Positions 965 to 35,014 of a stretch of DNA of 37,765 nt are shown one piece after another. Source of the DNA: a virus; the IMG/VR virus record IMGVR_UViG_3300017776_000052, positions 1 to 37,765 of that record. One strand, 5' to 3'. Under the pieces are notes generated by a model. That model did no database searches. It saw nothing but the letters and a program-made list of their open reading frames with translations, and was not told the origin of the DNA. The stretch's first letter is position 1. Every line of letters starts with the position of its first letter. The translations under genes were made by a program, and so were the position numbers.

Positions 965-998
965 TCCTCAAACATTTAACAACTAATAGAATAATACA

Positions 999-1421: not shown

Positions 1422-1443
1422 AAAATTCCTCGTTGGGATAATC

Positions 1444-1481
1444 AAGGGGGAGCGGAGGTAAGTGCTTCCGTTCCCCTTTTT
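1444..1481 (+). terminator. Intrinsic terminator-like hairpin after the capsid genes
   Basis: Inverted arms AAGGGGGAGCGGAGG and CTTCCGTTCCCCTT pair around a TAAGTG loop, with G-T wobbles and one bulged G, and run into a tract of five T. It lies between the two capsid genes and the tail genes. T7 has its main late terminator in the equivalent place, so this could keep capsid expression higher than tail expression. Folding was judged by eye. Confidence 0.6.
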
Positions 1482-1493
1482 ACTTAAAGACAT

Positions 1494-2207: not shown

Positions 2208-2208
2208 T

Positions 2209-4938: not shown

Positions 4939-4951
4939 ATAACTACAAATC

Positions 4952-6040
4952 ATGGCAATTAACTTTCCATCAGCACCCAACTCGGGGGATGTACACACAG
5001 TCGGCTCCATCATCTGGAAATACAACGGCAAAGCGTGGGACTCCCTGTATGAGCCATCTGCCCCCGCTCAGGTGGGTCTCAGCAATGTAGACAACACCAG
5101 CGACGAGGATAAGCCTGTATCAACCGCGCAACAGGCAGCACTCGACGCACTCACCAAGGATGATGTGGGGCTGGATAACGTGGATAACACCAGCGACATG
5201 AACAAGCCCGTGTCAACTGCCCAGCAAGCGGCAATCGACGCAGCGGGTGGAGGTTCCAGCTTCGACCAGGATCTCAACACCACAGACTCACCAACGTTCG
5301 CCACGCTCACCACGACGAACACCGTTGCAACGGATGTGTATGCTGTGGATGTTTCAACAACAGGCACGGTGACTGCGACCAACCTCTCTGTCACAGATGT
5401 GTATGCGGGTAACGTGGGAGCGGACAATGTTGATGTTGATGCGGATATCACCACAACCAACCTCGACGCATCAGGCACGGTGACTGCTGGCACAGTGACT
5501 GCGGACGAGGTAAGCACGGACACCTTCCAAGTCGCATCGGGTGGATACGCCTTCAAGTCAGGAGTCACCACTATCGCTTCTTTTTTCGCTGGATCTGCCA
5601 CTATTCGCGGAAATGTTCTCCCGGGCATCAATGGTATTTACGATCTAGGGGCGAGCTTTGCTCGATGGGATGATCTCTTTGTAGAGAGGGTTGACGCATC
5701 AGGCACGGTGACTGCTGGTGGCTTCGTTGGAACTCCTCAGACACTCACAGATGCCGCGACGATCACCTACGACCTTGCTGATGGCCACAACGCCAAGGTG
5801 ACGCTCACGGCGAGCAGGACGCTCTCATTGCCCTCAAACCTAGCAGAGGGAGCGTCAGGAGTGCTTACTATCACTCAGGACGGCACAGGGGGCCACGGTC
5901 TCACGCTGGCCTCTGGATGGTTCGTCTCTGCTGGTGCTCTGTCTGACATCTCAGCCCTTGGAGCTAGCGAGCAGGCCCAGATCACTTGGTATGCCTACGA
6001 GTCCAACAAAGTAAACGCCACCATTCTCCCACTACAGTAA
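4952..6040 (+). CDS. Tail fibre-like structural protein
   Basis: A 362-aa protein with two copies of the VDNTSDxxKPVSTAQQAALD tail-fibre motif (residues about 45-65 and 75-95). A repetitive Thr/Val-rich beta region follows (copies of SGTVTAGT), then a C-terminal domain with the LADGHNAKVTLTASRTL pattern typical of fibre tips that bind surface sugars. The same motif occurs once in the preceding protein, which suggests shared ancestry or co-assembly. It has no enzyme motif. The next gene starts inside its stop codon (TAATG), implying coupled translation. Confidence 0.7.
   Translation: MAINFPSAPNSGDVHTVGSIIWKYNGKAWDSLYEPSAPAQVGLSNVDNTSDEDKPVSTAQQAALDALTKDDVGLDNVDNTSDMNKPVSTAQQAAIDAAGGGSSFDQDLNTTDSPTFATLTTTNTVATDVYAVDVSTTGTVTATNLSVTDVYAGNVGADNVDVDADITTTNLDASGTVTAGTVTADEVSTDTFQVASGGYAFKSGVTTIASFFAGSATIRGNVLPGINGIYDLGASFARWDDLFVERVDASGTVTAGGFVGTPQTLTDAATITYDLADGHNAKVTLTASRTLSLPSNLAEGASGVLTITQDGTGGHGLTLASGWFVSAGALSDISALGASEQAQITWYAYESNKVNATILPLQ
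5465..5718 (+). repeat. Two 26-bp direct repeats inside the fibre gene
   Basis: The string starting GACGCATCAGGCACGGTGAC is repeated exactly over 26 bp at 5465-5490 and 5693-5718. A shorter version of its core (GGCACGGTGACTGC) occurs again near 5364. The copies encode DASGTVTAG segments. They reflect internal duplication and could allow length changes by recombination. Confidence 0.75.
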
Positions 6041-7269
6041 TGCCATTCGCCTTGCCCGGTTTCTTTCGCACGTTGGGTGCTGATCTCGACTTCTCGTCGG
6101 CCTTCCTCTACGTTGCTGCTGATGACTCAGCCGATCTAGCCAGTATCCTAGCTGGCACGTATGACTTCACCACTGTGGGCGCTATCAACGGGACTATCGT
6201 GGTAGCCACGGAAGAGGGCACATACAGCGCCGGTATCTCACTGGATGCCACAACTACCTATGATCTGTATTCGCAGGGAGTCTCGAATTCCCACAATGGG
6301 TTCATGGACACGCCTGTGGGATATGCCATCTTCCCGTCACCCTTGAGTGATGGTGAGATCGCTCAGGCTGAAGCTCACTTTGTCGCGGAGGGTGCTGCTC
6401 CAAAGAGTGCATTTGGGAGTGTTACAAACTTTACTGATGGTTGGAGAAATTGCAGAACTATTGCAACATTTCCTTTAATTGATACCTCATCTGCAGATTC
6501 ATTCTTTCGAACATGGAACTCATGTGAGAGCCTTATATCCTTCCCTGAGTTAGATTCATCATCAGTAACTTCATATCGTCAAGCATGGCAAAACTGCTCC
6601 TCCCTCACATCATTTCCCCTGCTCAACACTTCATCGGGGACGAACTTCAATAGCACATGGCGTGACTGCACCTCCCTCACATCATTCCCACTGATTAACA
6701 CTTCGTCAGGATCGAACCTTACTGCTGCATGGCAAAGCTGCACCTCCCTATCATCTTTCCCGTTGATTGATACTTCAGCAGCAACTACCCTTAACCGAAC
6801 ATGGTCCACATGCAGTTCACTCACATCCTTCCCAGCAATTAATGCTTCTCTATCAACAGACTTCTTCCAAACATGGAATGGCTGTGTCTCCCTCACATCC
6901 TTTCCGTTAATTGATGTTTCATTGGGACAAAGATTCAGCTTTACTTGGCAAAAATGTACTAACCTTACAACATTCCCTGCTGGTTTCTTTGATAGTTGGT
7001 CTCCCGCTTCTTTAATCAGCCAAGTCTTCAACCTGACATGGGACGGTTGCACCTCCCTCACCGCTCAGTCTGTGGAAAACATCCTAACATCCCTCGACAC
7101 CAGCGGAGTCTACGGAACCAACACAGGGGCAAGCGGAGGCACTCAGCTATCAGACAGCACAATCGACATCGACTACGATGGGACCACATTGTCAGGCGCG
7201 ACAACCACAGCGATCGCCAGCCTCAAGCTGAAGGACTGGGCCATCTCAATTAACTCAGTCATCCAATAA
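6040..7269 (+). CDS. Tail appendage protein with BspA-type leucine-rich repeats
   Basis: A 409-aa protein starting at ATG 6040 inside the preceding stop (TAATG); an upstream in-frame ATG at 5986 would overlap the fibre gene. Residues about 1-125 look like a virion-anchoring head region (PFALPGFFRTLGADLDFSSA). Residues about 128-345 hold around nine tandem 24-residue units of the form xFxxTWxxCxSLTSFPLIDTSS, the BspA/DUF285 type of leucine-rich repeat that usually mediates binding to surfaces or proteins. The C-terminal tail (NILTSLDTSGVYG and on) is the usual cap of such proteins. The repeat-coding DNA is clearly AT-richer than its flanks. It probably contributes to receptor binding. Confidence 0.75.
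   Translation: MPFALPGFFRTLGADLDFSSAFLYVAADDSADLASILAGTYDFTTVGAINGTIVVATEEGTYSAGISLDATTTYDLYSQGVSNSHNGFMDTPVGYAIFPSPLSDGEIAQAEAHFVAEGAAPKSAFGSVTNFTDGWRNCRTIATFPLIDTSSADSFFRTWNSCESLISFPELDSSSVTSYRQAWQNCSSLTSFPLLNTSSGTNFNSTWRDCTSLTSFPLINTSSGSNLTAAWQSCTSLSSFPLIDTSAATTLNRTWSTCSSLTSFPAINASLSTDFFQTWNGCVSLTSFPLIDVSLGQRFSFTWQKCTNLTTFPAGFFDSWSPASLISQVFNLTWDGCTSLTAQSVENILTSLDTSGVYGTNTGASGGTQLSDSTIDIDYDGTTLSGATTTAIASLKLKDWAISINSVIQ
6421..7080 (+). repeat. Tandem 72-bp-period repeats encoding leucine-rich units
   Basis: About nine units with a period near 72 bp (24 codons), diverged at DNA level but conserved in the encoded TWxxCxSLxxFP frame. The stretch 6421-6480 has 19 G+C in 60, whereas 6121-6180 in the same gene has 33 in 60, suggesting that the repeat block was acquired separately. 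Confidence 0.75.
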
Positions 7270-7270
7270 C

Positions 7271-9712
7271 ATGCCTAAAGCATCACAAATCACATTTAAC
7301 GGTGGAGAACTCACTGAGTTCATGGACCCCAGGGTTGACACTGGGAAGTATTCCAAGGGCTGCCAGACGCTCGAGAACTTCAACCCCATGCCATTCGGGA
7401 CGATCCTGAGTGCACCCGGGACTGAGCATATTACCACCACAAAGCATGCTGACAGGAAAGCTCGCCTAGTCCCCTTCAGCTTCTCAAAGGATGATGACCT
7501 CATGGAGATCGAGGTGGGTCATGAGTACCTTCGCTTCTTCCTCAACCAAGCCCCTGTAGCCCCTCCCACCCCTTCCGCATGGGTGACAGCGACACCATAC
7601 GCGGTGAATGATTACGTGACCGAGGGCGGCAACTCTTACCGATGCCTGATAGCTCATACATCAGGGACATTCTCAACAGACTTAGCAGCAGAGAACTGGG
7701 AGATCTCCACTGTTCTGGAAGTCGCCTCACCATACCAAGAGGAGGATATCTTCGAGCTTCAGTTTGAGCAGATCAACGACATCGTGATGATCGTCCATCC
7801 TGATTACGAGGAGAGCACTTTGATCAGGAAGGCGAATAATGACTGGGAGCTTCAGACGATTGATTACTCCGCATCTCCAAACTACCCGGCCCTCGCCCCC
7901 TTCAACACCACAGACACAACCCTGTCATTGCAGGGTTCTGTCGAGCAAGTGGGTGATACACCCACATTGATCGCATCCACGGATCTATTTAGCGCCGACA
8001 GCGTGGGGCAAATCATCAGCATTACTCATGACCGTGAGGATGTGACGCAACGGTTCAGATTTGACACCACCCTCCTCACCCCTGCGGAATCACCCACTTT
8101 TCTCGCTTATGGAGATGTAGTTTTTGAGACATCTGGAACAGCTACATATGGGGTGATTCTCGAAGAGTCTAAAACCCCAGGAATCTCTGGATCATGGAAA
8201 ACTAGGAGGCAATTCGATGTTATCGGGAACGAGCGGAACGAGAGGACAACCTTTTCTGTTGCGGAGCCAATATACCTGAGAGTGCGTCCTATCAATCACT
8301 CTGATGCGACCAACTCTGGTTACGGAGTCACGATTCTAGAGGTGAGCACGCCCACTGTCGACGGACTTCTCAAGGTGACTGGTTACAACGGAGACCCCAC
8401 CACGGTCTCCACCGAGGTTATTGAGCCATTTCTTCGAGGTGATGCCACCACTGAGTGGCGGGAGCAATACTTCAGCAAGAGGCGAGGATACCCGAGGGCG
8501 ATCTGCTTCCATAAGGAGCGGCGCTGCTTGGGCGGGGATGATGTGTGGTTGTCTCAACCTGGAAACTACTTCAATTATCGTGCAAGGAATGATGCTGACT
8601 CTGGTTTCATGGTGGGCGTAAATCGCAACGGCGCTCCGCACGTACAATGGCTTGAGAGCCTTCGCGAGCTTAGGGTGGGGACAAACCTAGCGGAGGGAGT
8701 GATCGTGCAGGAGAACACGACTGATGCCTTCGGGTATAACAACTACGACCTCAGATGGGACACCAACCACGGATCGAATAAGCTAAGGGCAGAGGCAATC
8801 AACGGCACTGTGCTTTACCTCCAGCAAGAGGGGCGAACTCTTCGGAATCAGGAGATCACAGGTATCGAGGATTACTACTCATCGAACGCGGAGACAACTC
8901 TAGCGGATCACATCCTTGAGGGTGGGGTCACTCAGACGGCCTATCAGCGCCAGAGATACCCTACTTGGCACGGTGTGCGTAAGGATGGGGAGCTTGCTAG
9001 CATGCTTTACGAGAAGAATCAGAACATCTTCGCTTGGTATCGTCGCAAGACAGATGGTGAGATTGAATCAATCTCGGTCAATCCACGGGCTGATGAGGAA
9101 GATCAAGTCTGCTATATCGTCAAGAGGACTGTGAATGGAGCAACCGTTCGCAACGTCGAGTATGTCAAGTTGGGTCAGTATCGTGGACTCCAGAACGATG
9201 ACACCTCAGAAATGTGGTTTGTCGATGACGGAATCAGAGTCGAGGGATCGGGCATGACGAGCGTTAGTGGGCTGGAGCATCTGGAGGGTGAGAGTGTCGC
9301 TATCTTGTGCGATGGTGCTAAGATCGCAGAGAGAACCGTGTCGGGCGGTTCTGTATCCCTCGACTACCCCACCGATATTGCTATCATTGGTCGCCCATAT
9401 GAGTATACAGTCATCCCTATGTTCTTAGAATCCCAAGGAACGATGGGTGCGACAAAGAAGATTACCAACGCAATAGTAAGACTCTGGAAATCAGGGACTT
9501 GCAAGATGCGCGTTAATGAGGGTGATTGGAGCACGCTGTCCTTTCCCAATTTCCAGTCAAGTCAAGCCCCCCTATTGCAGACGGGAGACTCAGCAAAAGT
9601 CACGGTTAATGGAGACTGGAGCAGAAATACTGCTATTGAATTAAAAGGGAGATCACCCCTTCCGCTCAACGTTCAAGCGATCACGCTGGAGTTTCAGGTG
9701 TCAGGAAAATGA
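7271..9712 (+). CDS. Tail tubular protein B (T7 gp12-like nozzle)
   Basis: An 813-aa protein whose length matches the T7 gp12 nozzle (about 794 aa). Recognisable stretches are the N-terminal NGGELTEFMDPRVDTGKYSKG, which is typical of the family, and the central RRGYPRAICFHKERRCLGG with SQPGNYFNYR and LRELRVGTNLAEGV. The family forms the hexameric tail nozzle, and DNA passes through it. It starts just after the repeat fibre and overlaps the next gene by ATGA. Identification is strong. Confidence 0.87.
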   Translation: MPKASQITFNGGELTEFMDPRVDTGKYSKGCQTLENFNPMPFGTILSAPGTEHITTTKHADRKARLVPFSFSKDDDLMEIEVGHEYLRFFLNQAPVAPPTPSAWVTATPYAVNDYVTEGGNSYRCLIAHTSGTFSTDLAAENWEISTVLEVASPYQEEDIFELQFEQINDIVMIVHPDYEESTLIRKANNDWELQTIDYSASPNYPALAPFNTTDTTLSLQGSVEQVGDTPTLIASTDLFSADSVGQIISITHDREDVTQRFRFDTTLLTPAESPTFLAYGDVVFETSGTATYGVILEESKTPGISGSWKTRRQFDVIGNERNERTTFSVAEPIYLRVRPINHSDATNSGYGVTILEVSTPTVDGLLKVTGYNGDPTTVSTEVIEPFLRGDATTEWREQYFSKRRGYPRAICFHKERRCLGGDDVWLSQPGNYFNYRARNDADSGFMVGVNRNGAPHVQWLESLRELRVGTNLAEGVIVQENTTDAFGYNNYDLRWDTNHGSNKLRAEAINGTVLYLQQEGRTLRNQEITGIEDYYSSNAETTLADHILEGGVTQTAYQRQRYPTWHGVRKDGELASMLYEKNQNIFAWYRRKTDGEIESISVNPRADEEDQVCYIVKRTVNGATVRNVEYVKLGQYRGLQNDDTSEMWFVDDGIRVEGSGMTSVSGLEHLEGESVAILCDGAKIAERTVSGGSVSLDYPTDIAIIGRPYEYTVIPMFLESQGTMGATKKITNAIVRLWKSGTCKMRVNEGDWSTLSFPNFQSSQAPLLQTGDSAKVTVNGDWSRNTAIELKGRSPLPLNVQAITLEFQVSGK

Positions 9713-10119: not shown

Positions 10120-10674
10120 ATGGCCGCACTACCATTAATCTCAGTCATTGGAACCGCGATAGGAGCGGGGACACAAGTCTATTCCGCTATCCAGCAGAGC
10201 AAGGACGCTGAGGCTGCCGCGAAGTTCAACGCTGAACAGACTCGCAAGGCCGCTAAGATCAAGGAGCTTGATGACCGGGAAAACGCACTCCGCAAGCAGG
10301 AGGCTAATCGGAAGCATCTCGGTGCTCGTCGTGCTCACCTGCTAGAGAAAGGCAATGGGATCATCGAGGGTGGTGATGCGGACTTCCTCGATGAAGAGGT
10401 GGGTAATCTCGAACTCAGCATCATGGATGCCTCCACTAGGTCTCAGAGAGCTCAGGCCGGTTACGCAAATCAGGCGTTCCAGTATGACTTCCAAGCGCAG
10501 CAAGCTAAAAGCTCGCGTGGCATCAACACTGCTGCTGCCGCAATAAAGGGCTTCAACGCAATCGCTAAATCATACGGTGACAACTATGGCTTCGGTGGAG
10601 GCCCAGACGTATCAGGAGCTAAGAAGGCTGAAGTGGTCCCGGGGACATGGCACCCCAAATCAGCCGAATATTAA
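10120..10674 (+). CDS. Internal virion protein (T7 gp14-like)
   Basis: A 184-aa protein, close to T7 gp14 (196 aa) in length. It has a hydrophobic Gly/Ala-rich N-terminus (PLISVIGTAIGAGTQVYSAI), a long charged helical middle rich in Ala, Lys, Gln and Glu, and a Gly-rich tail. In T7 gp14 is ejected and forms the outer-membrane part of the DNA conduit. Gene order (nozzle, small protein, this, two large proteins) supports the call. No Shine-Dalgarno is evident. Confidence 0.75.
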   Translation: MAALPLISVIGTAIGAGTQVYSAIQQSKDAEAAAKFNAEQTRKAAKIKELDDRENALRKQEANRKHLGARRAHLLEKGNGIIEGGDADFLDEEVGNLELSIMDASTRSQRAQAGYANQAFQYDFQAQQAKSSRGINTAAAAIKGFNAIAKSYGDNYGFGGGPDVSGAKKAEVVPGTWHPKSAEY

Positions 10675-10686
10675 AAACTCAAGAAC

Positions 10687-12792
10687 ATGGCACAACCAAT
10701 CGGAAAAGGACAAGCTGGTGGACAAATCCCACAGCAGAGGGCAGGAGATCTCTCCGCGACTACTCGCGCTATCAGTAACCTCGGGGGAGCTATCGCTCAG
10801 ACCGGGCAGCTCGCTGAGCAGATGCATGAGGAGCAGAAGCGTCAGTGGACCGGGAAGGCTGAGCTCCAATTCACAGAGGCAGAGTCTGCATTGCAGGTCA
10901 AGCTCGCGAAGACTCCCGACCCAAGTAAGCATGAGGAGATCGCTCGCACTCACTTCGAGGAGGCCAAGGCCAAGATCCTCAACAACGAGTCCTACACCGG
11001 GAAGTTTCGCAATGAGCTCGCTGAGAGACTCAATCACGCCGGGGCAATGCGACTCAACAAGATCACTACTGACGCATCTCTCCAGCAGGTTCGCAATGGT
11101 CGCCAGATTAATAATGAGCGGATCAAGAATCGCTTAGCTGACAACGATTACGCTGGAGCTGCCCAGCTTATCAATGAGGGCGTCGGAGTTTATCTGACTC
11201 CAGAGATGGCTCAGGTGCAGCTCGAGGAGGTTGGCATGCGTCAGGAAGATCACGCTAAGAAGCAGGTCAAGGAGGATGCGATCAACGAGATTGCATCGGA
11301 TCCTATTGGCTGGGCTGAGCGCAATCAGGAGCCATGGGAAGGTGACATGGCAGGCGACTGGGTGACCCTCCAGAGTCACGCTAAGACGGTGCGCCGGAAT
11401 AAAGGTTACGAGGAGACCGATAACGTCCTCGATTTGATTTATAGCGACGAGCTCACAGACCCGGAGAAGATCGAGCAGATGACTCCACACTTGAGGCCCA
11501 AGGCCCGAGAGTCATTACGCGCCGAGCACATCAAGAGGCAGGAGTATCTAGCCGAGGGAATCAGGTCTAGCAGCGTAGATCAGGACTCATTGATTGGAAC
11601 AGTGGGCGACTTACTTTCAAAGTATGAGGCTGAGGAGACAGAGGATTTCGATGACGCATATGTTCATTTGGATAGCTTGATCCGGGACATCAAAGACCCG
11701 GCGCAGAAAGCTGAATACAATCGTCAACTCAAGGCTAAGAGGGCTGGTCAATGGGCCGAGTCTAAGGAGAAGAGGGATGTCGTTTTCAAGGTATTCGATG
11801 AGGCTATTGAGGGCAGCGAAGCCCTAGTGCCGGAGACCACCCAAGGTGAGGAGATGTCACTAAGCTCACACCTGTATGATGATTTCCTGTCCGATCCAGA
11901 AAACCTACTAGGCGCGGGGTTTAGTCAGGAGCATACTAATGAGATCGTAAAGGCTTCCAAGGCTTGGTATGGTGAGGGAAACCGCAAGGGTAAAGATCCC
12001 GAGGAGTTAGTGAAGCGGCATTGGAGTGCCGGAGTTAAGCAAGATGATGATTATCCGGCAGGGAAGCGAGCCGTTCTTGATGCGATCCGTCATGAGAAGA
12101 CCCCATCTTCTACTGTAGTCGATCCCACGGCAGCAGGTAGAGCGGAGATGCTCGAGCGTGAGCGCAAGGTGGAGAATACCCGCATCAAGGGTCAGCTTCG
12201 TCAGAAGTTTATCAAGTGGTTTGATCTTAACCCAGACGCTAGCCCTGAAGACATTCAGCAGAAAGCTCACGGCTTGGGGGTTGAGTTCACAACAGAGAGC
12301 ATTAAGTCGAAGATGCTTCAGAAGCAGGGTGATCGGCCCACCGCGTCAGTGGGAACTGGTGACACCTTCCGCGTGGCGAGCAGCTACCTTGGAGTGCGCG
12401 AGCTTGCTGATGCCGCTAGCAATCCCCAGATTGATAAGTGGATCAGAGACATAAACCCCGATCTCGCCACGGATAGCACCGCTTGGTGTTCAGCCTTCGC
12501 GCACGCAGTAGCTGAAGAGTCTGGATACAAGGGGAGCGGCAAACTGAATGCTAAGTCTTGGCTAGGGGTGGGTGACGAGGTTCCGGCGAAGCAGGCCCAG
12601 CAAGGTGATGTCGTGGTCCTGTGGCGAGACAATAAATCATCGTGGAAGGGTCACGTTGGATTCTTTCACGGATACGACAAGAAAGGGAACATTCGCGTCC
12701 TTGGCGGCAATCAAGGGAACGAGGTATCCATCAAGACCTACCCCTCCAATAGACTCCTCGGGGTCCGCAGACTCAAAGAACTTAACGCATAA
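10687..12792 (+). CDS. Internal virion protein (gp15-like) with C-terminal peptidoglycan hydrolase domain
   Basis: A 701-aa protein. Residues 1 to about 540 are alpha-helical and charged like T7 gp15, which builds the ejected periplasmic tube. Residues about 560-701 match the TIGR02594 family, a CHAP/NlpC-P60-like hydrolase: Cys601 in TAWCSAF, the KSWLGVGD patch, His656 in GHVGFF, and GGNQGN around Asn675 are the expected catalytic and structural positions. This domain would open the cell wall during DNA entry. In T7 the wall-degrading domain sits on gp16 instead, so the enzyme has moved to the neighbouring ejection protein. Start ATG 10687 lies 12 bp after the previous stop. Confidence 0.8.
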   Translation: MAQPIGKGQAGGQIPQQRAGDLSATTRAISNLGGAIAQTGQLAEQMHEEQKRQWTGKAELQFTEAESALQVKLAKTPDPSKHEEIARTHFEEAKAKILNNESYTGKFRNELAERLNHAGAMRLNKITTDASLQQVRNGRQINNERIKNRLADNDYAGAAQLINEGVGVYLTPEMAQVQLEEVGMRQEDHAKKQVKEDAINEIASDPIGWAERNQEPWEGDMAGDWVTLQSHAKTVRRNKGYEETDNVLDLIYSDELTDPEKIEQMTPHLRPKARESLRAEHIKRQEYLAEGIRSSSVDQDSLIGTVGDLLSKYEAEETEDFDDAYVHLDSLIRDIKDPAQKAEYNRQLKAKRAGQWAESKEKRDVVFKVFDEAIEGSEALVPETTQGEEMSLSSHLYDDFLSDPENLLGAGFSQEHTNEIVKASKAWYGEGNRKGKDPEELVKRHWSAGVKQDDDYPAGKRAVLDAIRHEKTPSSTVVDPTAAGRAEMLERERKVENTRIKGQLRQKFIKWFDLNPDASPEDIQQKAHGLGVEFTTESIKSKMLQKQGDRPTASVGTGDTFRVASSYLGVRELADAASNPQIDKWIRDINPDLATDSTAWCSAFAHAVAEESGYKGSGKLNAKSWLGVGDEVPAKQAQQGDVVVLWRDNKSSWKGHVGFFHGYDKKGNIRVLGGNQGNEVSIKTYPSNRLLGVRRLKELNA

Positions 12793-12795: not shown

Positions 12796-15700
12796 ATGGC
12801 AACCACTATTACCTCTAACGAAGGATACACCTCAAGCGTCTCACCAGACCCGATCCCAGAATTCAAACCATCTTCCTTCGCAGAGAATGATTCATTTGAG
12901 ATGGATCTTCTGCGCCCGTCCATTGAGGCTGAGAAGAAGTATCAGGAGGAAGGTCTCAAGATCCGACGCACGAACTACGAAACGATCAAGAAGCACACGC
13001 TCGACTTCGACAACTTCGAGCCCGAGCAGACTAGCGAGGTCAGGCATCGGGTGCTGGCGTCTGGATATCTCGACTCCATGTTCCGTGAGGAGGATCGCCC
13101 ATCCAATGATCACGACATCCTGCGTGACTCTGTCGCCAAGTCTCGCTTCGGCGGCGAAGGCGTTGGAAGTGATGAGGCTTTTGTGGCAGCTATCCGAAAG
13201 GATTTCGAGGGAGAGAATGAGAGGCAGAAGTTCTATGACAATGCTGATCGACAGGCTACGCTCTCCGCGTTCCTTGGTGGCGGCAGAGTAAAGACGGAGT
13301 TTCAGCAGTCAATGGTGGGTAACCCACTCGCCAAGAGTGAGCGGCTGGAAATTAACGAACGCTGGCAAAAGACGCAGGAGAAGATCGAGGATAAATACGG
13401 CGCGTCACTACTGTTCGATATCAGGACAACCTTCAGCGATATGCAATCAGACCCCGACAAGTGGTTGATGCACGCATCGCACCGCACCAGAAACTACACG
13501 GACGAGGAGAAAAATCTGTTCATGTTCGCGTTGCGCGATCTCGCGACCGCTTACCCCTCAGAGGTCTCATCCACATTCGGCGGGAACTTCGCAAAGGGAA
13601 CCAGTCGTGGTGTTGGTGGCGCACTTGATAAGGGGTCTGAGGCAGCAATGGAGTTTTTCCGCAATGCGGGTGTGGGGGTTCATAATGTCTTCGTCGCTCC
13701 GTTCGCGGAGAACCTAGGGACAGAAAGCTCGAAGGCGTGGTCTGAGGAGAAGCGTCAGAACGACAAGGATTGGCTCAAGCGTGAGCGTGACGCGGTGGAT
13801 TTTCAGGCTGAGCTTCGAGATGTGTTCGAGCAGGACTACGCTCCTACGCAACCCTTAGCCCCCAAGGATACGTCGCTGCGTGCGATAGAGGAGGGTGTAT
13901 ACGCGATCCCCGGCGCGATCACAACAAGTGCCGTGGCATTCATCCCTGTGGTTGGCATGCCCTTATCCTTCGGGATGATGAAGGAGTTTGATCGCGAGAA
14001 GTATCGTCGCGAGATCCTTGCTGATGGTGGGTCTAGGGATGATGCGTATCGTCTCTCTGGCGGGATGTCGATGGTGTCAGCGGTTCCTAACATGCTACTG
14101 GAAAAGTTTCAGTCATACGGATTAGCTGGAAAAGTTCCCGGTCTCGGCAAGGTTTTCAACAAGATTGATGATATTTTCGCCAACAAGGTGGGTCGCTTTG
14201 GGACGAAGATGCTGGTAGCTGGCGCAGCGGAGACCGCTGTGGAACTTACGCAACATGCAAACACTGACTTGGTGCAGGATATCACAAGCTCTTTTAAGTC
14301 TGCTGTTCCAGGTATTGAGTGGAAGAACGGCAAAGATGGTCACTTCGATGGATACTTCAATAAGACCCTGACAACCTTCGTGGCGGTTGCGCCATTGGGC
14401 GTGATGGTTGCTGGGCGCGGCTTGACGCAGGAGCGGAGAGCGGAGGCCATGAAGCAGGCTTCCCCGTTGGAGCGCAAGGCATTCGGAATCACGGAGGAAG
14501 CTAGTGCGAAGTTGGATGCGGCTCAGACCCCGCGTGAGATGGTGCAAGCTTTTCAGGACGCGGTGAAGACTCGCGCCCCGTGGACGGAGACGGCCCAAGA
14601 GAGTGTCATGGAGTTGGAGGAGATGCACAAGATGCGCACTCAGACCAATGAGGACGCTGAGACATTCGGTGTCTCCCCATCCGTGCGAGTAGCCCCCGAC
14701 AAGTCAACCTTCGAGGTATTCGATAGGTTGACTGGTGACACACTCGCGGAGGTTAATACAGCACAAGAGGCAACCGAGGAGGTGTTCAATCAGCTTCAGA
14801 TGAAGGAGCAGGAGAGTCGCCAGTATTTCCAGCAGCTACTCGCGTCCTTCGAGGCGGCATCCTTGGATGTTGAGCAGTCAGGTGAAGCTGTAGAGGTTGG
14901 AACAGGAACATTCACAGATGCGGATGCTGAGGCTGCTATGCCCGGCTCCGATAGAAGGCTCCAGACAGAGCGTGAGCTTCTTGAGCAGCGCGATGGTGGA
15001 ACTGGCGCGGTCGCGCAGGAAGTGATGTCAGAGGGGCGGTCTGGGCACATTGCGGGGGTGTATGTCCCAGCGGGTCAGATGGGACGCAAGGAAGCGGTCA
15101 CGCAGCTACACAATAGCGCCAGCGTTCTCACACTTATCCATGAGCGAGGACACGCAAAACGCCGCAAGCTCATGGAGTCCGGTGCTTGGACGCGAGAGGA
15201 TCAGATCTCCTCATTGCGGGGGCTGGACAATCTTATCACCAAATCGGACGAGAGGTTTATGCCTGAGAACTTTGAGGAGTTAAGTGGATACGATCAAGAG
15301 GTCGCCATCGATGAGGCGATCGCTGAACTCTCTGAGGTTCTAGCACTCAACTCCCGCAAAGGAAAGAACTCCAAGATGGGTGGTCTCATCCAGCGCAACC
15401 TGTCCGCAATGGTGCAGGCTAGGATACCCGGCGCAGCACAACTCAAGTCCTTCATTGGGTCGATGCGTGACTTCTTCGGGCTTCAGCTTAAGCGTGCCAC
15501 CATTCTCAGGAAGGCAGTGCGTGACGGTAATCTCGATCAGGCTCAGGTAGATAAACTCACCGATATGCTGGTGGGGACTAACTCTCAGGAGGTCTTCGAG
15601 CAGGAGCGTGATGCGATACCTACGCAGATGGTGGATGGTCAGCAGGTGGATACTCCACTCTCGCCAGCTCCTCTTTCCATCGCGGAGGAGGCACAAGCCA

Positions 15701-18700
15701 AAGCGACGGAAGAAATCCAAGAGGAGTTGGGTCTTGGTCCAGAGGTTGATGCGTGGTTTGACGATGCACTCGGGGCGGCAGATAAGGGATGGGTGTGGTA
15801 TACCACCAGCCGAATCGACACGGTGTTGCGCAGGGGTGAAATTGAACAGGCTGAGACCCTCCTCCGCAGGCTGGAGGTTGCTCTCACAAAGATGGAGCCC
15901 CTTTCGAAAGGAGCGAGTGAGACGCTTGAGGAGGCGCGGCTTGAGGAGGCGCGCCAAGACATTAAGGATGCCAAGGTTGACACCTCAAGCCCATCCTTCT
16001 CCATCACGCCAGCGGATACCTCCTACAGAATCCAGCACCAACCATCCTCCGATGATGCCACCCTGAACGATCTCACGGAGATGTTCGGTGAAGACATTTA
16101 CGGCCCGAATGCGGCTCAGTATTACGGAGCAGGAATGGCTGGCGAAAGTGAGGTGCTTGATATCTTCAAGAAAGTGAGAGGGAATCCCGAGGCAAAAGTG
16201 AAGATTTATCGAGTTGTTCCAGCGTTTGCCGATCAGATTAATCCGGGCGACTGGGTTACTATTTCCAAGGCGGCGGCTGATGAGATGAATCATTCTGGAT
16301 TCCTTGGTGGAGATTCCAGCGGGAATCCTCAAGAATCAAAGATCATCAGTAAGGTTGTTACGGCAAAGGAGGTAACGTGGCCCGGCGACTCCATGCAGGA
16401 GCAGGGGTATTTCCCCTCAAGCCCCTCCTTCTCCATCACGCCGAATGGGTCTTATGAGAAAGGCGGGTCTTGGTATCACTCAACAGACGCTAACCTCGAC
16501 GGGAAGCGGCTGGAGCGGTGGGCTGACGGCGGTTCAGATATGGGCGGCATTTTTCTTTCAGATGACTCCCTAGAGGGGAAACGATATTCGTTGAACTATG
16601 GGAGAAATACTTACAAAACTCAAATCAACCTGGAGAGTGATGAGGTTTTCAATCTAGGGAATCATGAACACAGGGAAAGAGTTGAGGGTGTTGAGCTTTT
16701 TGATGCAGTCGGAACAGACTTTATCCGAACAGCACTTAATTCCGAGAGGGATGGCACTCTCGATTGGTCTGTCGTTGAGCCAGAACTGCTTGAGGCGGCA
16801 GGATTCAAAGCTGCGATTTTGTTCGAGAGACCAGCCGGAGAATTTGGGGCCCAGCCAGTTAGATCGATAGCGGTATTTGACGCTGACTCGATTGGGGATC
16901 TTGAGAGAGTTTCGGACAAGAGCAGGGACGAGATCAGCTTCTCCCCCGGCGATGCGCGTATGTTGTCAGATCTCTCTGAGAATGTCATGCGTAGGGTTCG
17001 CGCTCCTGAGGCTAGGGCTGTTGTCTTTGAGCAACTGGTTGACCGTATCGACGCATTGAAGCGTGATATCGCCAAGCTAATCTTCGGTGGCACGGTTGTG
17101 CAGGAAGCTCTGCCTGATGCTCGCTCGATGAAGTCGCTCAAGAAGGAGGCTGCGTTTAGGCAGGCTGATCTGCGTGAGCAGTATGAGAAAGATGGAGTGG
17201 AGCAACCCGCGAAGAAAGCTCGCACCGAGGCCAATGAGTGGCTGGAGGAGCAGGTCGCCCAGCAAAAGAAATACTACAATCCAGTAGCTCGCATTCGTCG
17301 CTCGCTGGTGATGTATGATGCGCTCCTCAAGACTTTGCCACCAGAGCTTCGCGGGAAAATGGGCGGCTTCGTCCAGATCGGCAAGCTGAATAGCGACAAG
17401 GCCCGACTCGAATTCCTCGAGCAGAAGGTTGAGCAGTTGGATATCGAGGTGGACAAGTGGATCTCCGGCAAGCATCGCAAACAGATCGAGGAGATCTTCA
17501 AAGCCAATCGCCCGAAGAAGAAATCAAGCGGTCAACCCAAGGTTGACTCTGATGCCACCTACGCCGATCAGGTGATGAAGATCGAGAAGCTCTCGAAGCT
17601 CACCCGTGATGAGGTTGAGGCGAAGATCTTGAAGGTTGACGGCAAGCTGGAAACCGAGACGGACGAGACTAAGATCCAGAAGCTCACAGAGAAGCGGGAT
17701 AGCTTGTCCGTCTTCGGCAACATCGACGGCATGAAGGCTAATGCCTTAGGCGACTTCTATCAGAACCTCAACACGATCCACAGGCAGGGTAAACTCCTGA
17801 AGGCGATGACTGATGAGCAGTTCAATCAATTCCTACAGGAGACTATCGGGATGGTTAATGATGATGTCACTGGCGGGAGGGGTGATCTCACTCAGTCTGA
17901 GATCAAGATGATGAGCGAGAGTCGGAGGAAGAAGAAGATCAACCTGAAGTATATCGGCGCGGAGAATATTGAACTGGAGGGAATGAGCGACTTCCACCGG
18001 AAGAACCTCCCCTTCGAGTGGCTACTGAACAACCTCGCTCGCGGCAACAAAGATGCTGAGACAATGAAGAGCAAGACGCATGAGCGACTCGCGACGATGG
18101 TTCACCTCTCCACAACCCGAGAGGATCGGGCCAACATGGACACACAGGAGAAGTATAGGGAGGTGCTGGGTGAGATATTCGGCGTGAAGGTCGGTGGTCA
18201 GCTTAGTACTGGAACAGGTATCGAGGATCTGATGGAGGAGTTGGAGCGGGTCGAGGAGACCAATATCTCCAAGATGGAGTATGGTAAGGAGGGTCGCTCT
18301 ACCGCGAAGCGTATTCCAGCATCCAAAGTGCAAGCTATCCTTAATGGGGAAGCCACGATTGAGGGGCTTGGTATCAGCGAGGCTGACTGGGCTGCGATAC
18401 AGGTTAGATATGCTGAGATCCAAGAGAGTGGAAAGAACATCAAGGATAACACGAGGGTGGAGTATGAATCTCAGACCGAAGGTGAAGCGAAGATGATGTC
18501 CCTCTCTCGATCCCAGGCACTCAACCTCACCATGCTCTGGAGACAGGAGGGGCTCAGGGGTTCAATGGAACATGAGGGCTATTCTGAGCAGACCATGAAG
18601 GACATGGAGGAGTTCTTAACACCGGAGGATAAACGTCTCCGCGATTGGTTGACGATTCAATACGAGGACAACTACCACAAGATCAATAAGGTATTCCGTG

Positions 18701-20064
18701 CGCAGAATGGATTCAGTCTACCTAAGACGGACTTCTACTCACCAGCAATTCGCATCGCTCTGAAGGAAGCGAAGGATATGAGTATCGATAGCGAGGGTAG
18801 GCAGGCTATGTCGGTTGATCCCAACTTCACGATTACGCGCACCGCTAACAAGGCCCCAATGGATCAGAAGGCTGGCGCTCTCAGTATCTATATCTCGCAC
18901 ACCTTGCAGACCAATCACTACACCTCTTGGGCCGATACCGTAAAAACGCTTCGTTCCGTATTCTCGGATGGTGTCTTGAGGGATAACATCAAGGGGTATG
19001 TCGGGACTGATGCGTTGCGCACGATTGAGGAGAGGATTCAGTGGTTCGCTGATGGTGGTAACCGGAAGGCGACACACATAGCATGGATGGATAAGCTGAG
19101 AGCAGCACACACCTACAACTCCCTTGCGTTTAAGTGGGCGATTGCGGTGAAGCAGCTTACCTCGATACCCGCGTATGCTTATGATATGGGCTTCGTCAAC
19201 TTCGCAAAGTATGGAGCGAGATGGATGAAGAATCCTGTGAAGAACATGATGGAGATGTGGAACACTGACTACGTCCAGAACAGATTCAAGAAGGGCTACG
19301 AGCGCGACGTGATTGACGGGTTACGAACTAAGGCTGGAGCGAATAAGTTCAAGAAGGCTCTACAGGTCGGAATGCTCTCGGGCAAACTTGGTGACATCGT
19401 GCCGGTCATGATGGGGGGGTGGATAGCTCGCGAGCACGCATATGATCAAGCGAAGCGTGATGGCATGACTGATGCGGATGCGAAGCGCAAAGCTGAGGTT
19501 GTGTCTGAGATGGTATCAGATCGCTCGCAGCAGGCTGGTGGTCTAAAAGACTTATCAACATTTCAAGGTGATGGGTCGGTGTTCAAGCTCTTCACCATGT
19601 ATAAGACATCGCCGCGTCAATACTACGCCAACGTCTATGAATCCGGCTTGGATATGCTCGCCGGTAAGAAGGGGTCGAAGACGCAGTTTGCACGGAGGTT
19701 TGCTATCAGTCATATGCTCCTCCCGCTCACCTTTCAATTCGTGAGCGACATCACCCGCATGGGTCTACGTCCCGACGATGAGGATGCTTTCTCGGGTGAG
19801 AACTACTTGAGGGCGATGCTGCTTGGGCCTTTGAACGGTCTGTTCATCGCTGGCGATGCGCTGGATATCGCTATCAGCGCCATCTCAGGAGCTAAAGTTT
19901 GGGCGAAGGAGATCCCGATACTTGGCGGTGTCATGGAGGCAGCGCGAGGTGGAGATCTTGAAGATGCTGCGGATAACATCATTCGCGGCATAGGAAAGCT
20001 AACACCGGGCGCATTCACCTTCTACGACATCATCACGGATGAATACAGGCGACTCATGAACTGA
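12796..20064 (+). CDS. Giant internal virion protein (gp16-like polyvalent protein): metallopeptidase motif plus two ADP-ribosyltransferase-like domains
   Basis: A 2422-aa protein, far longer than T7 gp16 (about 1318 aa) but in its position, so probably ejected into the cell. Domains read from the sequence: a hydrophobic segment at about 370-396; HERGH at 782-786 with acidic candidates E840, E844 and E847 downstream, a zinc-peptidase pattern; an ADP-ribosyltransferase-like domain at about 1076-1207 (R1139 in IYRVVP, S1157 in VTIS, E1202 in MQEQG); a second one at about 1219-1375 starting WYHST (H1228), of the H-type; then long helical regions, and a C-terminus with hydrophobic stretches after about 2300. 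SPSFSITP linkers at 1065-1072 and 1209-1216 and a SFSP at 1381-1384 bracket the two transferase domains. Enzyme roles are inferred from motifs; targets are unknown. Confidence 0.75.
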   Translation: MATTITSNEGYTSSVSPDPIPEFKPSSFAENDSFEMDLLRPSIEAEKKYQEEGLKIRRTNYETIKKHTLDFDNFEPEQTSEVRHRVLASGYLDSMFREEDRPSNDHDILRDSVAKSRFGGEGVGSDEAFVAAIRKDFEGENERQKFYDNADRQATLSAFLGGGRVKTEFQQSMVGNPLAKSERLEINERWQKTQEKIEDKYGASLLFDIRTTFSDMQSDPDKWLMHASHRTRNYTDEEKNLFMFALRDLATAYPSEVSSTFGGNFAKGTSRGVGGALDKGSEAAMEFFRNAGVGVHNVFVAPFAENLGTESSKAWSEEKRQNDKDWLKRERDAVDFQAELRDVFEQDYAPTQPLAPKDTSLRAIEEGVYAIPGAITTSAVAFIPVVGMPLSFGMMKEFDREKYRREILADGGSRDDAYRLSGGMSMVSAVPNMLLEKFQSYGLAGKVPGLGKVFNKIDDIFANKVGRFGTKMLVAGAAETAVELTQHANTDLVQDITSSFKSAVPGIEWKNGKDGHFDGYFNKTLTTFVAVAPLGVMVAGRGLTQERRAEAMKQASPLERKAFGITEEASAKLDAAQTPREMVQAFQDAVKTRAPWTETAQESVMELEEMHKMRTQTNEDAETFGVSPSVRVAPDKSTFEVFDRLTGDTLAEVNTAQEATEEVFNQLQMKEQESRQYFQQLLASFEAASLDVEQSGEAVEVGTGTFTDADAEAAMPGSDRRLQTERELLEQRDGGTGAVAQEVMSEGRSGHIAGVYVPAGQMGRKEAVTQLHNSASVLTLIHERGHAKRRKLMESGAWTREDQISSLRGLDNLITKSDERFMPENFEELSGYDQEVAIDEAIAELSEVLALNSRKGKNSKMGGLIQRNLSAMVQARIPGAAQLKSFIGSMRDFFGLQLKRATILRKAVRDGNLDQAQVDKLTDMLVGTNSQEVFEQERDAIPTQMVDGQQVDTPLSPAPLSIAEEAQAKATEEIQEELGLGPEVDAWFDDALGAADKGWVWYTTSRIDTVLRRGEIEQAETLLRRLEVALTKMEPLSKGASETLEEARLEEARQDIKDAKVDTSSPSFSITPADTSYRIQHQPSSDDATLNDLTEMFGEDIYGPNAAQYYGAGMAGESEVLDIFKKVRGNPEAKVKIYRVVPAFADQINPGDWVTISKAAADEMNHSGFLGGDSSGNPQESKIISKVVTAKEVTWPGDSMQEQGYFPSSPSFSITPNGSYEKGGSWYHSTDANLDGKRLERWADGGSDMGGIFLSDDSLEGKRYSLNYGRNTYKTQINLESDEVFNLGNHEHRERVEGVELFDAVGTDFIRTALNSERDGTLDWSVVEPELLEAAGFKAAILFERPAGEFGAQPVRSIAVFDADSIGDLERVSDKSRDEISFSPGDARMLSDLSENVMRRVRAPEARAVVFEQLVDRIDALKRDIAKLIFGGTVVQEALPDARSMKSLKKEAAFRQADLREQYEKDGVEQPAKKARTEANEWLEEQVAQQKKYYNPVARIRRSLVMYDALLKTLPPELRGKMGGFVQIGKLNSDKARLEFLEQKVEQLDIEVDKWISGKHRKQIEEIFKANRPKKKSSGQPKVDSDATYADQVMKIEKLSKLTRDEVEAKILKVDGKLETETDETKIQKLTEKRDSLSVFGNIDGMKANALGDFYQNLNTIHRQGKLLKAMTDEQFNQFLQETIGMVNDDVTGGRGDLTQSEIKMMSESRRKKKINLKYIGAENIELEGMSDFHRKNLPFEWLLNNLARGNKDAETMKSKTHERLATMVHLSTTREDRANMDTQEKYREVLGEIFGVKVGGQLSTGTGIEDLMEELERVEETNISKMEYGKEGRSTAKRIPASKVQAILNGEATIEGLGISEADWAAIQVRYAEIQESGKNIKDNTRVEYESQTEGEAKMMSLSRSQALNLTMLWRQEGLRGSMEHEGYSEQTMKDMEEFLTPEDKRLRDWLTIQYEDNYHKINKVFRAQNGFSLPKTDFYSPAIRIALKEAKDMSIDSEGRQAMSVDPNFTITRTANKAPMDQKAGALSIYISHTLQTNHYTSWADTVKTLRSVFSDGVLRDNIKGYVGTDALRTIEERIQWFADGGNRKATHIAWMDKLRAAHTYNSLAFKWAIAVKQLTSIPAYAYDMGFVNFAKYGARWMKNPVKNMMEMWNTDYVQNRFKKGYERDVIDGLRTKAGANKFKKALQVGMLSGKLGDIVPVMMGGWIAREHAYDQAKRDGMTDADAKRKAEVVSEMVSDRSQQAGGLKDLSTFQGDGSVFKLFTMYKTSPRQYYANVYESGLDMLAGKKGSKTQFARRFAISHMLLPLTFQFVSDITRMGLRPDDEDAFSGENYLRAMLLGPLNGLFIAGDALDIAISAISGAKVWAKEIPILGGVMEAARGGDLEDAADNIIRGIGKLTPGAFTFYDIITDEYRRLMN

Positions 20065-20122: not shown

Positions 20123-22768
20123 ATGTCACTTCCAGACGTTCTCCCAATTGCCTCGTATAGTGGTAACGCTAGCACCAGCACAGCTTACCCCTTCCCCTTC
20201 AAGGTGTTAGCGGCATCACACGTCAAGCTGTATATTGACGGGGTGCTATCCACTGATGCCATCACGGTGACAGGGGTGGGTGATGAGGCTGGAGTCGATG
20301 TTACCACCAGCGTGGCATACACCTCGGAGCAGCAGGTCACCCTGAGGCGCGAGGTTCCATTCAGTCAAGAGACTGACTTGGTTGAGGGTGGTAGGCTACG
20401 TGAGGAGAGTCTGGAGAATGCTCTGGATTACGGTGTGATGCAGGCCCAGCAACTCAAGGAGGAGCTAGGTCGCGCAGTTAAATTCCCACCAGGCAGCTCT
20501 GGTTCCACACTCCCAAGCTCCACCAATTCAACGATTGGTCAGGATGCCAACGGGGATCTGGTCAGCCGGACAGCCCAAGAGGAGCTTGACCACTTAGGGG
20601 TTGGGACAGCAGCAACGGAGGCGTCCGCGTCAGCAGCAGCAGCAGCAACCAGTGAGACCAACGCCGCCACCAGTGAGACTAACTCTGGAACCAGCGAGAC
20701 AAACGCAGCCGCCAGCGCAGCAGCAGCAGAGGCTAGCAACGTCAACGCTTCGACAACACTAGGCGACCTCTCCAGCAAATCCTTCCCTGTCTACCGGGTA
20801 GGGAAAACCATTTTCGCAGCCGATATCACCTCGGATTTAACCATGAATTTCCCCGGTGGCGGCTCCCTCACACTCAAAACCTCAGAGCGTCCATACACTG
20901 AGGCCAATGCGACCAACGCCAATGATCCCGGTGGTGCGAATGTGACCGACTACATCACGGACATAATCAACATCATCAACGGGGATGTGCGGGACCACGA
21001 CACCTCCGAAGACTCGGGACTCTCAGGTTGGACTGCATCAGGAAACGCCATCACAACCGTTAGCAATGCGACCCCCATCACTGGGTGGAGCGCGAAACTC
21101 GCCACGGATGGAGGAGTTGATATTCCCGGAGTCATGGATCTCACCTACTACGGATCTGATAACACTCCGCTGACCGTCCCTCTCCCCCTGGAGATTCGGG
21201 CAAGCACCGAGTCCTCTCCACCAGAGCTTCCGTATGTTTCTTACCACGCCGCACAAACCCTCACGGAGTCCCAGAAGACTCAGGCGCGTGACAATATAGG
21301 CATACAAGATAGCGCGGATGGGACTAGCTTCTCAGAAGTCGCCCCCATGATGGTTAAGGCTGGACTAGGGACTCCTTTTAAAGATCCAGATGTGGAGTCG
21401 GTTCTGACAGCTACCTCCACAACTGATGATCTTGGGGTCAATCATTACCGGCGACTCATCACTGGGCTGAAGGATCTCGGCATCTGGTCAAAGCTCGAAA
21501 GCGGATTTCTCTTTGGTGATAACCATCAGTCCTCCTCCACAACCCTCCAACCAATCAAGGGTAGCAATACCGCCACGGGATCAGGCACTAATAACGATTA
21601 CGATGTCAGCTTGAATGGCACATCGAACGGATATTTGGTTTCAAATGCGAATGCAGACACCGCCGCTGCGGGTCGCGCACTAGTGACGATCTACACGCAC
21701 GACGAGGGTACGGGGCCGAACGCCCTCCTGTCTAACTACGAAGGTGGATCGAATCGCGGCATGGTGATGACGGTGGCAGGGTTGCCGATCGGAGGGGCAA
21801 TCATTCCCACGTATGCGGACAACCTTTTCGGCCTCGGTAGTGTTGATGGCTCAGCCGTCACCGCTATGCCTGATGTTGAGGCTGCGAATGACGGGCAATG
21901 GAGCTTTGGAGCACTCAGTCTTGATGATGGAAATCTCACGATCATGGGCAACTCGCGAGAAGTGGAGACTCTTCCGCTTTCAACGGTCTGGGTAGATCGC
22001 CCAAATTGGGGGATCGGAAAGAACCCGAATAGTAGCTACTTCCATACCGGCAGGATCGCCACATCGCTCATCTTCAAGGAAGGTCTGAGCAACGGGGAAC
22101 TGTTCAACCTTCGCCTTCTCTTGGAGTCAATACTGGCTGATGTCATAGACTTCCAGCCCTGTATCGTATGGGAGGGCAACTCTCTGACCGCTCAGAATTC
22201 GGGTGGAGGCACACCTCTCGCCAATAAAGTGATGGCGAACGCCGCGTGGGATGATGTAAGATTTGAGGTCTTGGCTACTGGTGGCGCGAAGCAGACCCAG
22301 AGAGTCGAGGCGCAATACTACAACCAAGCTCGTCGATGGGTTGCTGCTGGCAAAGCAAAACGGATCTTCTGGTTATGGTCTGGGATTAACGACATCACAG
22401 CCTTGATCTCTTCGTCTGATATTATCGCATCACTGAAGCGTCAACTGTTGGCGGCTCGCGAGGACGGATTCTTCACGATACTTGTGCCACTCACCCCTGT
22501 GGCTAGCGCCGGAGACGGGACGACATACACCTATAGCGCGGCGCAGCAGACAACCCTCACCGAAGTGAATGAGTGGATTGCTGACGAAGGAGCTAAGATT
22601 GCAGATCAATATCTTGACATTAACTTGCTCGCAGACACTTACCCCGCATTCGGAGATCCCACTGACTCCACCTATTACACGGCTGGAGATGGCCTACATC
22701 ACAATGACACGGGCAGAAATCTAATGCGCGACTACATCGTCGCCAATGTCGAAGTTCCAACCATATAA
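20123..22768 (+). CDS. Tail fibre (T7 gp17-type N-terminus) with SGNH esterase domain
   Basis: An 881-aa protein. Residues 1 to about 150 match the T7 tail-fibre N-terminal domain that binds the tail (ASTSTAYPFPFKVL, LRREVPFSQETDL, ENALDYGVMQAQQL). Residues about 165-215 are an Ala/Ser/Thr/Asn repeat stalk. Residues about 490-670 look like a LamG-type jelly roll. The C-terminus is an SGNH/GDSL hydrolase with block I EGNS (Ser687), block III GIND (Asn756) and block V DGLH (Asp856, His859); block I has Asn where GDSL has Asp. Such domains remove acetyl groups from surface glycans. Its position after the gp16-like gene is that of T7 gp17. Confidence 0.85.
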   Translation: MSLPDVLPIASYSGNASTSTAYPFPFKVLAASHVKLYIDGVLSTDAITVTGVGDEAGVDVTTSVAYTSEQQVTLRREVPFSQETDLVEGGRLREESLENALDYGVMQAQQLKEELGRAVKFPPGSSGSTLPSSTNSTIGQDANGDLVSRTAQEELDHLGVGTAATEASASAAAAATSETNAATSETNSGTSETNAAASAAAAEASNVNASTTLGDLSSKSFPVYRVGKTIFAADITSDLTMNFPGGGSLTLKTSERPYTEANATNANDPGGANVTDYITDIINIINGDVRDHDTSEDSGLSGWTASGNAITTVSNATPITGWSAKLATDGGVDIPGVMDLTYYGSDNTPLTVPLPLEIRASTESSPPELPYVSYHAAQTLTESQKTQARDNIGIQDSADGTSFSEVAPMMVKAGLGTPFKDPDVESVLTATSTTDDLGVNHYRRLITGLKDLGIWSKLESGFLFGDNHQSSSTTLQPIKGSNTATGSGTNNDYDVSLNGTSNGYLVSNANADTAAAGRALVTIYTHDEGTGPNALLSNYEGGSNRGMVMTVAGLPIGGAIIPTYADNLFGLGSVDGSAVTAMPDVEAANDGQWSFGALSLDDGNLTIMGNSREVETLPLSTVWVDRPNWGIGKNPNSSYFHTGRIATSLIFKEGLSNGELFNLRLLLESILADVIDFQPCIVWEGNSLTAQNSGGGTPLANKVMANAAWDDVRFEVLATGGAKQTQRVEAQYYNQARRWVAAGKAKRIFWLWSGINDITALISSSDIIASLKRQLLAAREDGFFTILVPLTPVASAGDGTTYTYSAAQQTTLTEVNEWIADEGAKIADQYLDINLLADTYPAFGDPTDSTYYTAGDGLHHNDTGRNLMRDYIVANVEVPTI

Positions 22769-34690: not shown

Positions 34691-35014
34691 ATGACAGCAA
34701 TCAACTCAGTCATGATCGCTGGACATAGGATTAAGATACAACGATCCGACCTCGAGGACTGCTATGGACAATACTCCCATGACAAAAGAACCATTCAACT
34801 CGCTGAGAATCTCCCAGAGCAGGAATACCTGCCCACCCTGCGGCATGAGATGCTCCACGCGGCCTTCCACCTGTCTGGAATCTCCTTTCTTGACTCGTTT
34901 CAAGAGGAATCCTGCGTCCGCTGCATCGATGAGATCTTTTTTCCAGCATACGAGCGCATTCTAAAACGACTAAATAACAACCAACCAAAAACCAACGATG
35001 AAATCGAACAATAG
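34691..35014 (+). CDS. Small IrrE/SprT-like zinc metallopeptidase
   Basis: A 107-aa protein with HEMLH at residues 52-56 (H52, E53, H56) and a following acidic helix (FQEESCVRCIDEIF) that could supply the third zinc ligand. The YGQYSHDKRTIQLAENLPEQ segment ahead of it is typical of small phage members of the ImmA/IrrE-SprT group. Such enzymes cut regulators or DNA-linked proteins. It opens the packaging cluster and overlaps the next gene by 17 bp. The substrate cannot be told. Confidence 0.75.
   Translation: MTAINSVMIAGHRIKIQRSDLEDCYGQYSHDKRTIQLAENLPEQEYLPTLRHEMLHAAFHLSGISFLDSFQEESCVRCIDEIFFPAYERILKRLNNNQPKTNDEIEQ

Follow-up and report, generated by a model that had tools for sequence, protein, structure and literature searches.

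Polyvalent proteins, which occur in phages and conjugative elements and were surveyed by Iyer et al. (2017; PMC5512222), are giant multidomain polypeptides that share with the protein described here an HExxH peptidase domain and an ADP-ribosyltransferase (ART) of the H type. Autoprocessing has been proposed for these proteins and DdrB of P1 is processed, whereas the N4 vRNAP, in which a peptidase domain is also present, is packaged without being cut (PMC5512222). The survey also states that the R-S-E family of Alt and VIP2 is absent from genuine polyvalent proteins, and its main text nowhere uses the word "linker" (PMC5512222). In this work we analyzed a virus record from IMG/VR with a length of 37,765 bases (IMGVR_UViG_3300017776_000052; a possibly incomplete record, referred to here in its whole length as the window), in which a gene at 12796..20064 (+ strand, as for all window coordinates below) encodes a protein of 2,422 amino acids at the position of T7 gene 16, after the genes of a gp14-like and a CHAP-domain protein and before a tail-fibre gene. 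By homology this is a phage polyvalent protein, and so belongs to a known class. It differs from the surveyed proteins in having a domain of the R-[TS]-E type, named here ART1, which forms a family separate from Alt/VIP2 with a similar layout of residues, and in having its modules joined by a repeated, clade-specific peptide, named here the seam.

The explanation that we regard as reasonably probable is that of a virion-carried polyvalent protein, in a podovirus with the gene order of T7, whose swappable, seam-bounded cargo would provide effectors that enter together with the DNA. In this arrangement a variable cargo bay would lie between conserved N- and C-terminal cores; in the window it would contain, besides a zincin-like peptidase domain, two effector modules of the ART type, each placed after a short clade-specific seam. 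Direct support comes from the domains recognized by homology, the architecture, the seams at module borders, the exchange of modules and the position of the gene. We further infer that the protein would be packaged alongside the internal virion proteins and would enter the host cell together with the DNA, that the ART modules would be catalytic and, early in infection, would ADP-ribosylate proteins of the host or of defence systems, and that the seams may be exposed joints, possibly cut to release the modules. The comparison with T4 Alt is the sole basis on which host RNA polymerase might be named as a target.

A preliminary description of this DNA, made from its letters, had picked out HERGH (residues 782-786), SPSFSITP-type linkers, R1139, S1157, E1202 and WYHST. 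All of these are present in the open reading frame (ORF) 12796-20064, with SPSFSITP starting at residues 1065 and 1209 and WYHST at residues 1226-1230 (16471..16485), and the suggestion of a polyvalent-type protein is borne out by the C-terminal core (residues 1381-2422; 16936..20061). Residues 1876-2292 of this core are homologous to a giant protein of MT836673 (hhalign E 4e-12, tblastn 1e-13) with InPase (E 1e-54), LPD3, LPD23 and ART1 domains, and with this homology the window protein falls within the class that Iyer et al. (2017; PMC5512222) described, in which its C-terminal core and ART1 are common to proteins with InPase, LPD3, LPD22 and LPD23. Several domains of disparate activity are found in this one phage polypeptide (peptidase-like, ART1 and ART2, besides the cores), and polyvalent-associated domains are shared with the MT836673 protein through the C-terminal core. 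Pfam, NCBIfam and PDB sequence searches with the domains of the window protein returned no family. MT836673.1 (L007) itself is an unannotated human faecal phage contig, with a polyvalent protein as the product of its ORF 3-8219, in which two HExxH-type motifs accompany InPase, LPD3, LPD23 and ART1.

Two close whole-protein relatives, L002 and L003, were found in IMG/VR; the N-terminal core (residues 1-730; 12796..14985) is conserved in L002, and L003 lacks the 5' end. A search with ART1 led to L014 and L015, which have the same layout, and a search with ART2 to a fifth relative, L108. The six proteins compared below are these five and that of the window, and the seam motif was not used in picking any of them. 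The cargo of the relatives includes the known effector domains PBECR5 (RNase-like) and ART-PolyVal.

Three seams are present in the window protein, SPSFSITP at residues 1065-1072 (15988..16011) and again at residues 1209-1216 (16420..16443), and ISFSPGD at residues 1380-1386 (16933..16953), where the C-terminal core resumes. The SPSFSITP-type linkers had already been said to bracket the ART domains, and they are present; the third was not named, although the interval described, which ended at 16935, closes within it. SSPSFSITP is the sole repeated stretch of at least six residues in the protein, and exact repeats of eight residues appeared in none of 1,000 shuffles. The seam class [ST][FY][SQ][ILMP] was generalized after viewing these proteins, and its counts are descriptive and not the test of a prior hypothesis: the six proteins contain it at 21 places, where 2.4 would be expected (2,000 shuffles, maximum 8), and it is present only twice in 21,790 amino acids of the other ORFs on the same contigs. 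All 21 occurrences lie at module borders and none in the conserved cores. Seams of one protein are more alike than seams of different proteins (3.6 versus 2.5 matches of 6; permutation p 0.0006, or 0.0002 without L002), and equivalent seam serines have AGY codons in some copies and TCN codons in others, which points to selection on the seam peptide.

The possibility that the seam is a general feature of ART1-carrying polyvalent proteins was rejected, since in 29 such proteins the seam class occurs 3.15 times per 1,000 amino acids near ART1 and 3.06 times elsewhere; the claim is therefore limited to the window clade. No account of the seam came out of the literature searches, and such a joint for the exchange of effector modules, restricted to one clade, looks new and undescribed. 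In an unrelated gammaproteobacterial frame of 4,850 amino acids (L114), three tandem ART-PolyVal copies are each followed by NPDIR[YF]ARR (bases about 1438-3120), which suggests that similar joints may arise separately.

The content between the seams is ART1 then ART2 in the window, an ART-PolyVal-like domain then ART1 in L002, a long ART-PolyVal-like domain then another domain in L003, ART1 and ART-PolyVal in L015, and PBECR5, ART2 and ART-PolyVal in L108. Since the relatives replace modules between seams, the cargo appears to evolve by cassette exchange. BLAST breakpoints fall on the seams: residues 1061-1213 of the window protein correspond to residues 1360-1512 of L002, and the core resumes at residue 1381, which matches L002 residue 1510. 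At fourfold-degenerate sites the window and L002 are 82% identical in ART1 (66 sites), but 44% in the N-terminal core (355 sites) and 48% in the C-terminal core (340 sites), an excess in ART1 with Fisher p of 1.5e-8 and 3e-7, respectively. The core segment directly 3' of the seam, with 71% identity at 38 fourfold sites, does not differ significantly from ART1 (p 0.23), and the tract that was exchanged may therefore reach beyond the 3' seam. Judged from these sites, ART1 was exchanged recently between the window phage and the L002 phage.

N-terminal to the ART modules, residues about 735-935 (14998..15600) are predicted by profile comparison to form a zincin-like peptidase domain, an assignment that we consider likely. 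Its HERGH motif (residues 782-786; 15139..15153) is invariant in the window, L002 and L003, with HEVSEGH as the counterpart in L015; since HExxH arises by chance in 3% of shuffles, the motif alone is only mildly surprising. The peptidase motif recognized in the preliminary description gains from the comparison of the whole region with the HESGH domains of polyvalent proteins, in which hhalign scored 36.7 for L055 (E 4e-5) and 27.4 for L049 against a null maximum of 18.9 among 58. A Glu-rich helix at residues 834-847 (15295..15336) is a candidate for the third zinc ligand, with E840, E844 and E847 invariant in the alignment of the window, L002 and L003. A direct profile match with the HEVVAH domain of MT836673 was not significant, and tblastn of the region against phage records returned no match.

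Two readings of the seams have to be weighed. According to one, which in our judgement comes close to an even chance, they are nothing more than joints for recombination or flexible spacers, that is, short common sequences for swapping that are functionless in the mature protein. The two SPSFSITP copies and the codons upstream of them differ at few positions, the breakpoints and the recent exchange of ART1 coincide with seams, and the window phage encodes RecT-like and RecE-like proteins and RusA. However, the seam peptide is retained with different codons in distant relatives, and joints in the DNA alone need not keep S-F-S; the seam is also present at every module, the core included.

Alternatively, the seams may be processing sites, at which the HERGH peptidase or another protease would cut [ST][FY][SQ][ILMP] and free the modules before packaging or after entry, a possibility that we hold tentatively and with some doubt. 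A peptidase-like domain lies N-terminal to the cargo and the seams precede unrelated modules; their resemblance within one protein is what would be expected if they followed one protease; the switching of serine codons indicates that the peptide, and not the DNA alone, is conserved; and the proposed autoprocessing of polyvalent proteins and the processing of DdrB are in line with it. On the other hand, HExxH is degenerate in L014 (TVLEEKVEGD) and L108 (TVFEESAEGY) and the seams are kept in both, which weakens pure self-cleavage, and the uncut N4 vRNAP also argues against cutting. A small HEMLH gene of the window phage, located near the small terminase gene at 34691-35011 (phrog_1233, with a weak phrog_87 metallo-protease match), is conserved in the phages of L002 (94%) and L003 (72%). 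This gene was tested as an explanation of the seams, but it was not found in the records of L014, L015 and L108, and this negative result in L014 and L108, where HExxH is lost, speaks further against processing. A broader and, in our opinion, unlikely proposal is that the seam is a processing code: a podovirus family would eject a fusion of interchangeable effectors, including an unrecognized R-[TS]-E ART family, and a protease for [ST][FY][SQ][ILMP] would free the modules and co-evolve with the seam in each phage.

Among the effector modules that the favoured explanation assigns to the cargo, ART1 (residues 1077-1207; 16024..16416) is characterized by Y1077, H1081, R1139, T1155 and E1202. Residues 1071-1208 match positions 335-463 of phrog_2579 (E 4.8e-22), and the family, which is unannotated, is represented in at least 382 IMG/VR stretches. 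Among 93 relatives in the alignment, conservation is 100% for R1139, 96% for E1202 and 92% for Y1077 and H1081, while the residue after W1153-V1154, T1155 in the window, is T in 81% and S in 19%, a column that lies within the search pattern, so that its conservation is partly built in. Of the R1139-S1157-E1202 set that had been compared with R-S-E enzymes, the outer two residues stand, whereas S1157 is not conserved and the middle residue is T1155. The layout then has R1139 as the strand-1 Arg (strand 1 in the model), T1155 as the strand-2 Ser/Thr and E1202 as the late catalytic-type Glu. AlphaFold2 (AF2) modelled ART1 with confidence (pLDDT about 95), and the solved structures that VIA-align reports at Z>=2, 14 in number, all have the ART fold (Z 2.0-3.5). 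These matches include Tse6, Arr, Vis, iota toxin, CDTa, ExoS and anthrax lethal factor, the last of which we take to contain an ART-like domain. Foldseek gave no match for ART1 in the PDB under E 1, and a sequence search against solved ARTs gave none either; since the best Z is only 3.5, we grade the ART fold of the modelled domain as likely.

Elsewhere ART1 adjoins LPD22, LPD23, InPase, GGDEF, GNAT and ART-PolyVal domains, and in MW202573 it is followed by two ART-PolyVal-like domains of the YHG[TS] type (recognized by eye) in a gene placed between those of the tail adaptor and the stabilisation protein. The annotation of this last product as a "DNA repair protein" (L004:5533-7569; MW202573.1, UOF78806.1) is apparently mistaken, as it contains ART1 and, after it, two YHG[TS]-type ART-like domains within a P22-like structural block.

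It could be argued that ART1 is not an ADP-ribosyltransferase and represents a small alpha/beta domain of another kind, such as one that binds nucleotides or DNA as a partner to ParB-like proteins, which we find rather improbable. The lack of a sequence match to solved ARTs and the low structural Z would suit such a domain, as would the name of phrog_2579, "ParB C-terminal domain", and the annotation of 14 phage relatives of ART1 in BFVD, none of which is described as an ART. Nevertheless, every solved structure reported at Z>=2 is of the ART fold, the strand-1 R, the T/S that follows strand 2 and the near-invariant late E fit the R-S-E layout, and ART1 repeatedly adjoins ART-PolyVal modules. 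ART1 is the same domain as the C-terminal region of phrog_2579, but in the window it comes without the ParB part, and the label gives no enzymatic function where the structure points to the ART fold. With T4 Alt and other head-packaged R-S-E ARTs it shares the placement of R and E and, as proposed here, a strategy of acting at entry; in contrast to them, it has no sequence match and forms a separate family. ART1 is thus a probable ART family that carries no functional label and is apparently undescribed.

The second module, ART2 (residues 1221-1380; 16456..16935), contains WYHST (H1228), GGIFLS and VFDADSI, and by its profile match is likely a divergent ART-PolyVal-like domain. In a comparison with a profile of five ART-PolyVal domains, hhalign aligned 113 columns with a score of 30.6 (E 3e-4), against a maximum of 17.4 for 60 random segments of the same protein family. 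As in ART-PolyVal (PF18760, Tox-ART-HYD2 clade), the alignment extends along the domain, from the H strand through the G-hydrophobic-[YF] strand to the late VFD strand, and H1228 is the strand-1 His of a YH[GS]T context, invariant with L108, in agreement with the H-type character first noticed from WYHST. It differs from that family in several respects. PF18760 had no match in the window, and ART2, being below its cut-off, is called ART-PolyVal-like and not a member; the strand-2 Tyr is replaced by F1253 in the alignment, although Phe and other residues also occur in accepted members; and a single close relative was found, that of L108 with 62% identity, tblastn of ART2 against phage records giving no match. 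The strand-5 Asp is uncertain, D1362 being Lys in L108 and D1364 being conserved.

The genes around the polyvalent protein follow the order of a T7-like podovirus, with a TTA-like gene (phrog_394), tail-fibre-like genes, the TTB gene (phrog_376), a gp14-like internal virion protein (phrog_418; 10120..10671), a gp15-position protein with a CHAP domain at its C-terminus (10687..12789), the polyvalent protein and a tail fibre (20123..22765) whose N-terminus resembles phage tail proteins (phrog_1640), so that the gp14-gp15-gp16-gp17 order of T7 is matched. Located 3' of the tail-fibre gene are genes for RecT-like and RecE-like proteins, RusA, a DnaB-like helicase, a methyltransferase and terminase subunits. 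The succession of TTB, gp14-like protein, a protein of 575-700 amino acids and polyvalent protein is common to the window and L015, and from the gp14-like protein onward to L108/L109; in L002 a homologue of the CHAP-domain gene lies 5' and a fibre gene 3' of the polyvalent gene. Like T7 gp16, the window protein is encoded between the gp15-position and tail-fibre genes; unlike gp16, it is almost twice as long and has its peptidoglycan-type domain (CHAP) in the neighbouring gene. When the window cores were compared by hhalign with T7 gp15 and gp16 and with BcepC6B gp15-17, no convincing match was obtained, and the gp16 score showed no convincing gain over shuffled gp16; the designation "gp16-like" given earlier therefore holds for gene position only. 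The phage had also been said to lack its own RNA polymerase, and indeed the T7-type enzyme (PF00940) was not found in this possibly incomplete record, while the T7 positive control was detected. The CHAP domain, at residues 596-675 of its protein, possibly stands in for the peptidoglycan-cutting domain of T7 gp16. The TTB homologue (7271-9709) contains at residues 103-131 a CBM_5_12 carbohydrate-binding module (E 2.1e-6), unusual in a tail tube protein, and the tail-fibre-like genes between the TTA-like and TTB genes (2128-7266) occupy a place where T7 has none.

Several results weigh against a virion-carried protein with exchangeable effectors. Similarity to T7 gp16 is undetectable in the window protein by profile comparison, ART1 has weak fold matches, with Z no higher than 3.5 and a Foldseek E above 1, and the HExxH motif is degenerate in two relatives that retain the seams. 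The window clade of ART1 has AADEM or similar where most members of the family have YA..H after strand 2, and its activity may be altered. Structure prediction with fold comparison, the check proposed in the preliminary description, gave a confident model with low-Z ART-fold matches for ART1, whereas ART2 and the peptidase region (pLDDT 44, four sequences) have no usable AF2 model because their relatives are few. That the protein is instead a structural ejection or channel protein whose enzyme-like domains are decayed passengers would suit a gene among those of internal virion proteins, the peptidase motif gone in two relatives and the substitution at YA..H, but it is decidedly improbable, as R1139 and E1202 are retained through module exchange and the incoming modules include recognizable ART-PolyVal and PBECR5 domains.

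While the polyvalent class is known, the probable ART family and the clade-specific exchange joint are new. The enzymes that phages deliver at entry, and the way in which multiple working effectors could come from one giant fusion, constitute a largely untested topic. Because the enzymes carried by a common core vary while the short peptide in front of them does not, the cutting of seams, the exchange of modules and ADP-ribosylation can be assayed separately in this clade. If ART1 is an ADP-ribosyltransferase, it would provide a candidate function for at least 382 viral stretches that are at present labelled as uncharacterized or as "ParB C-terminal domain".

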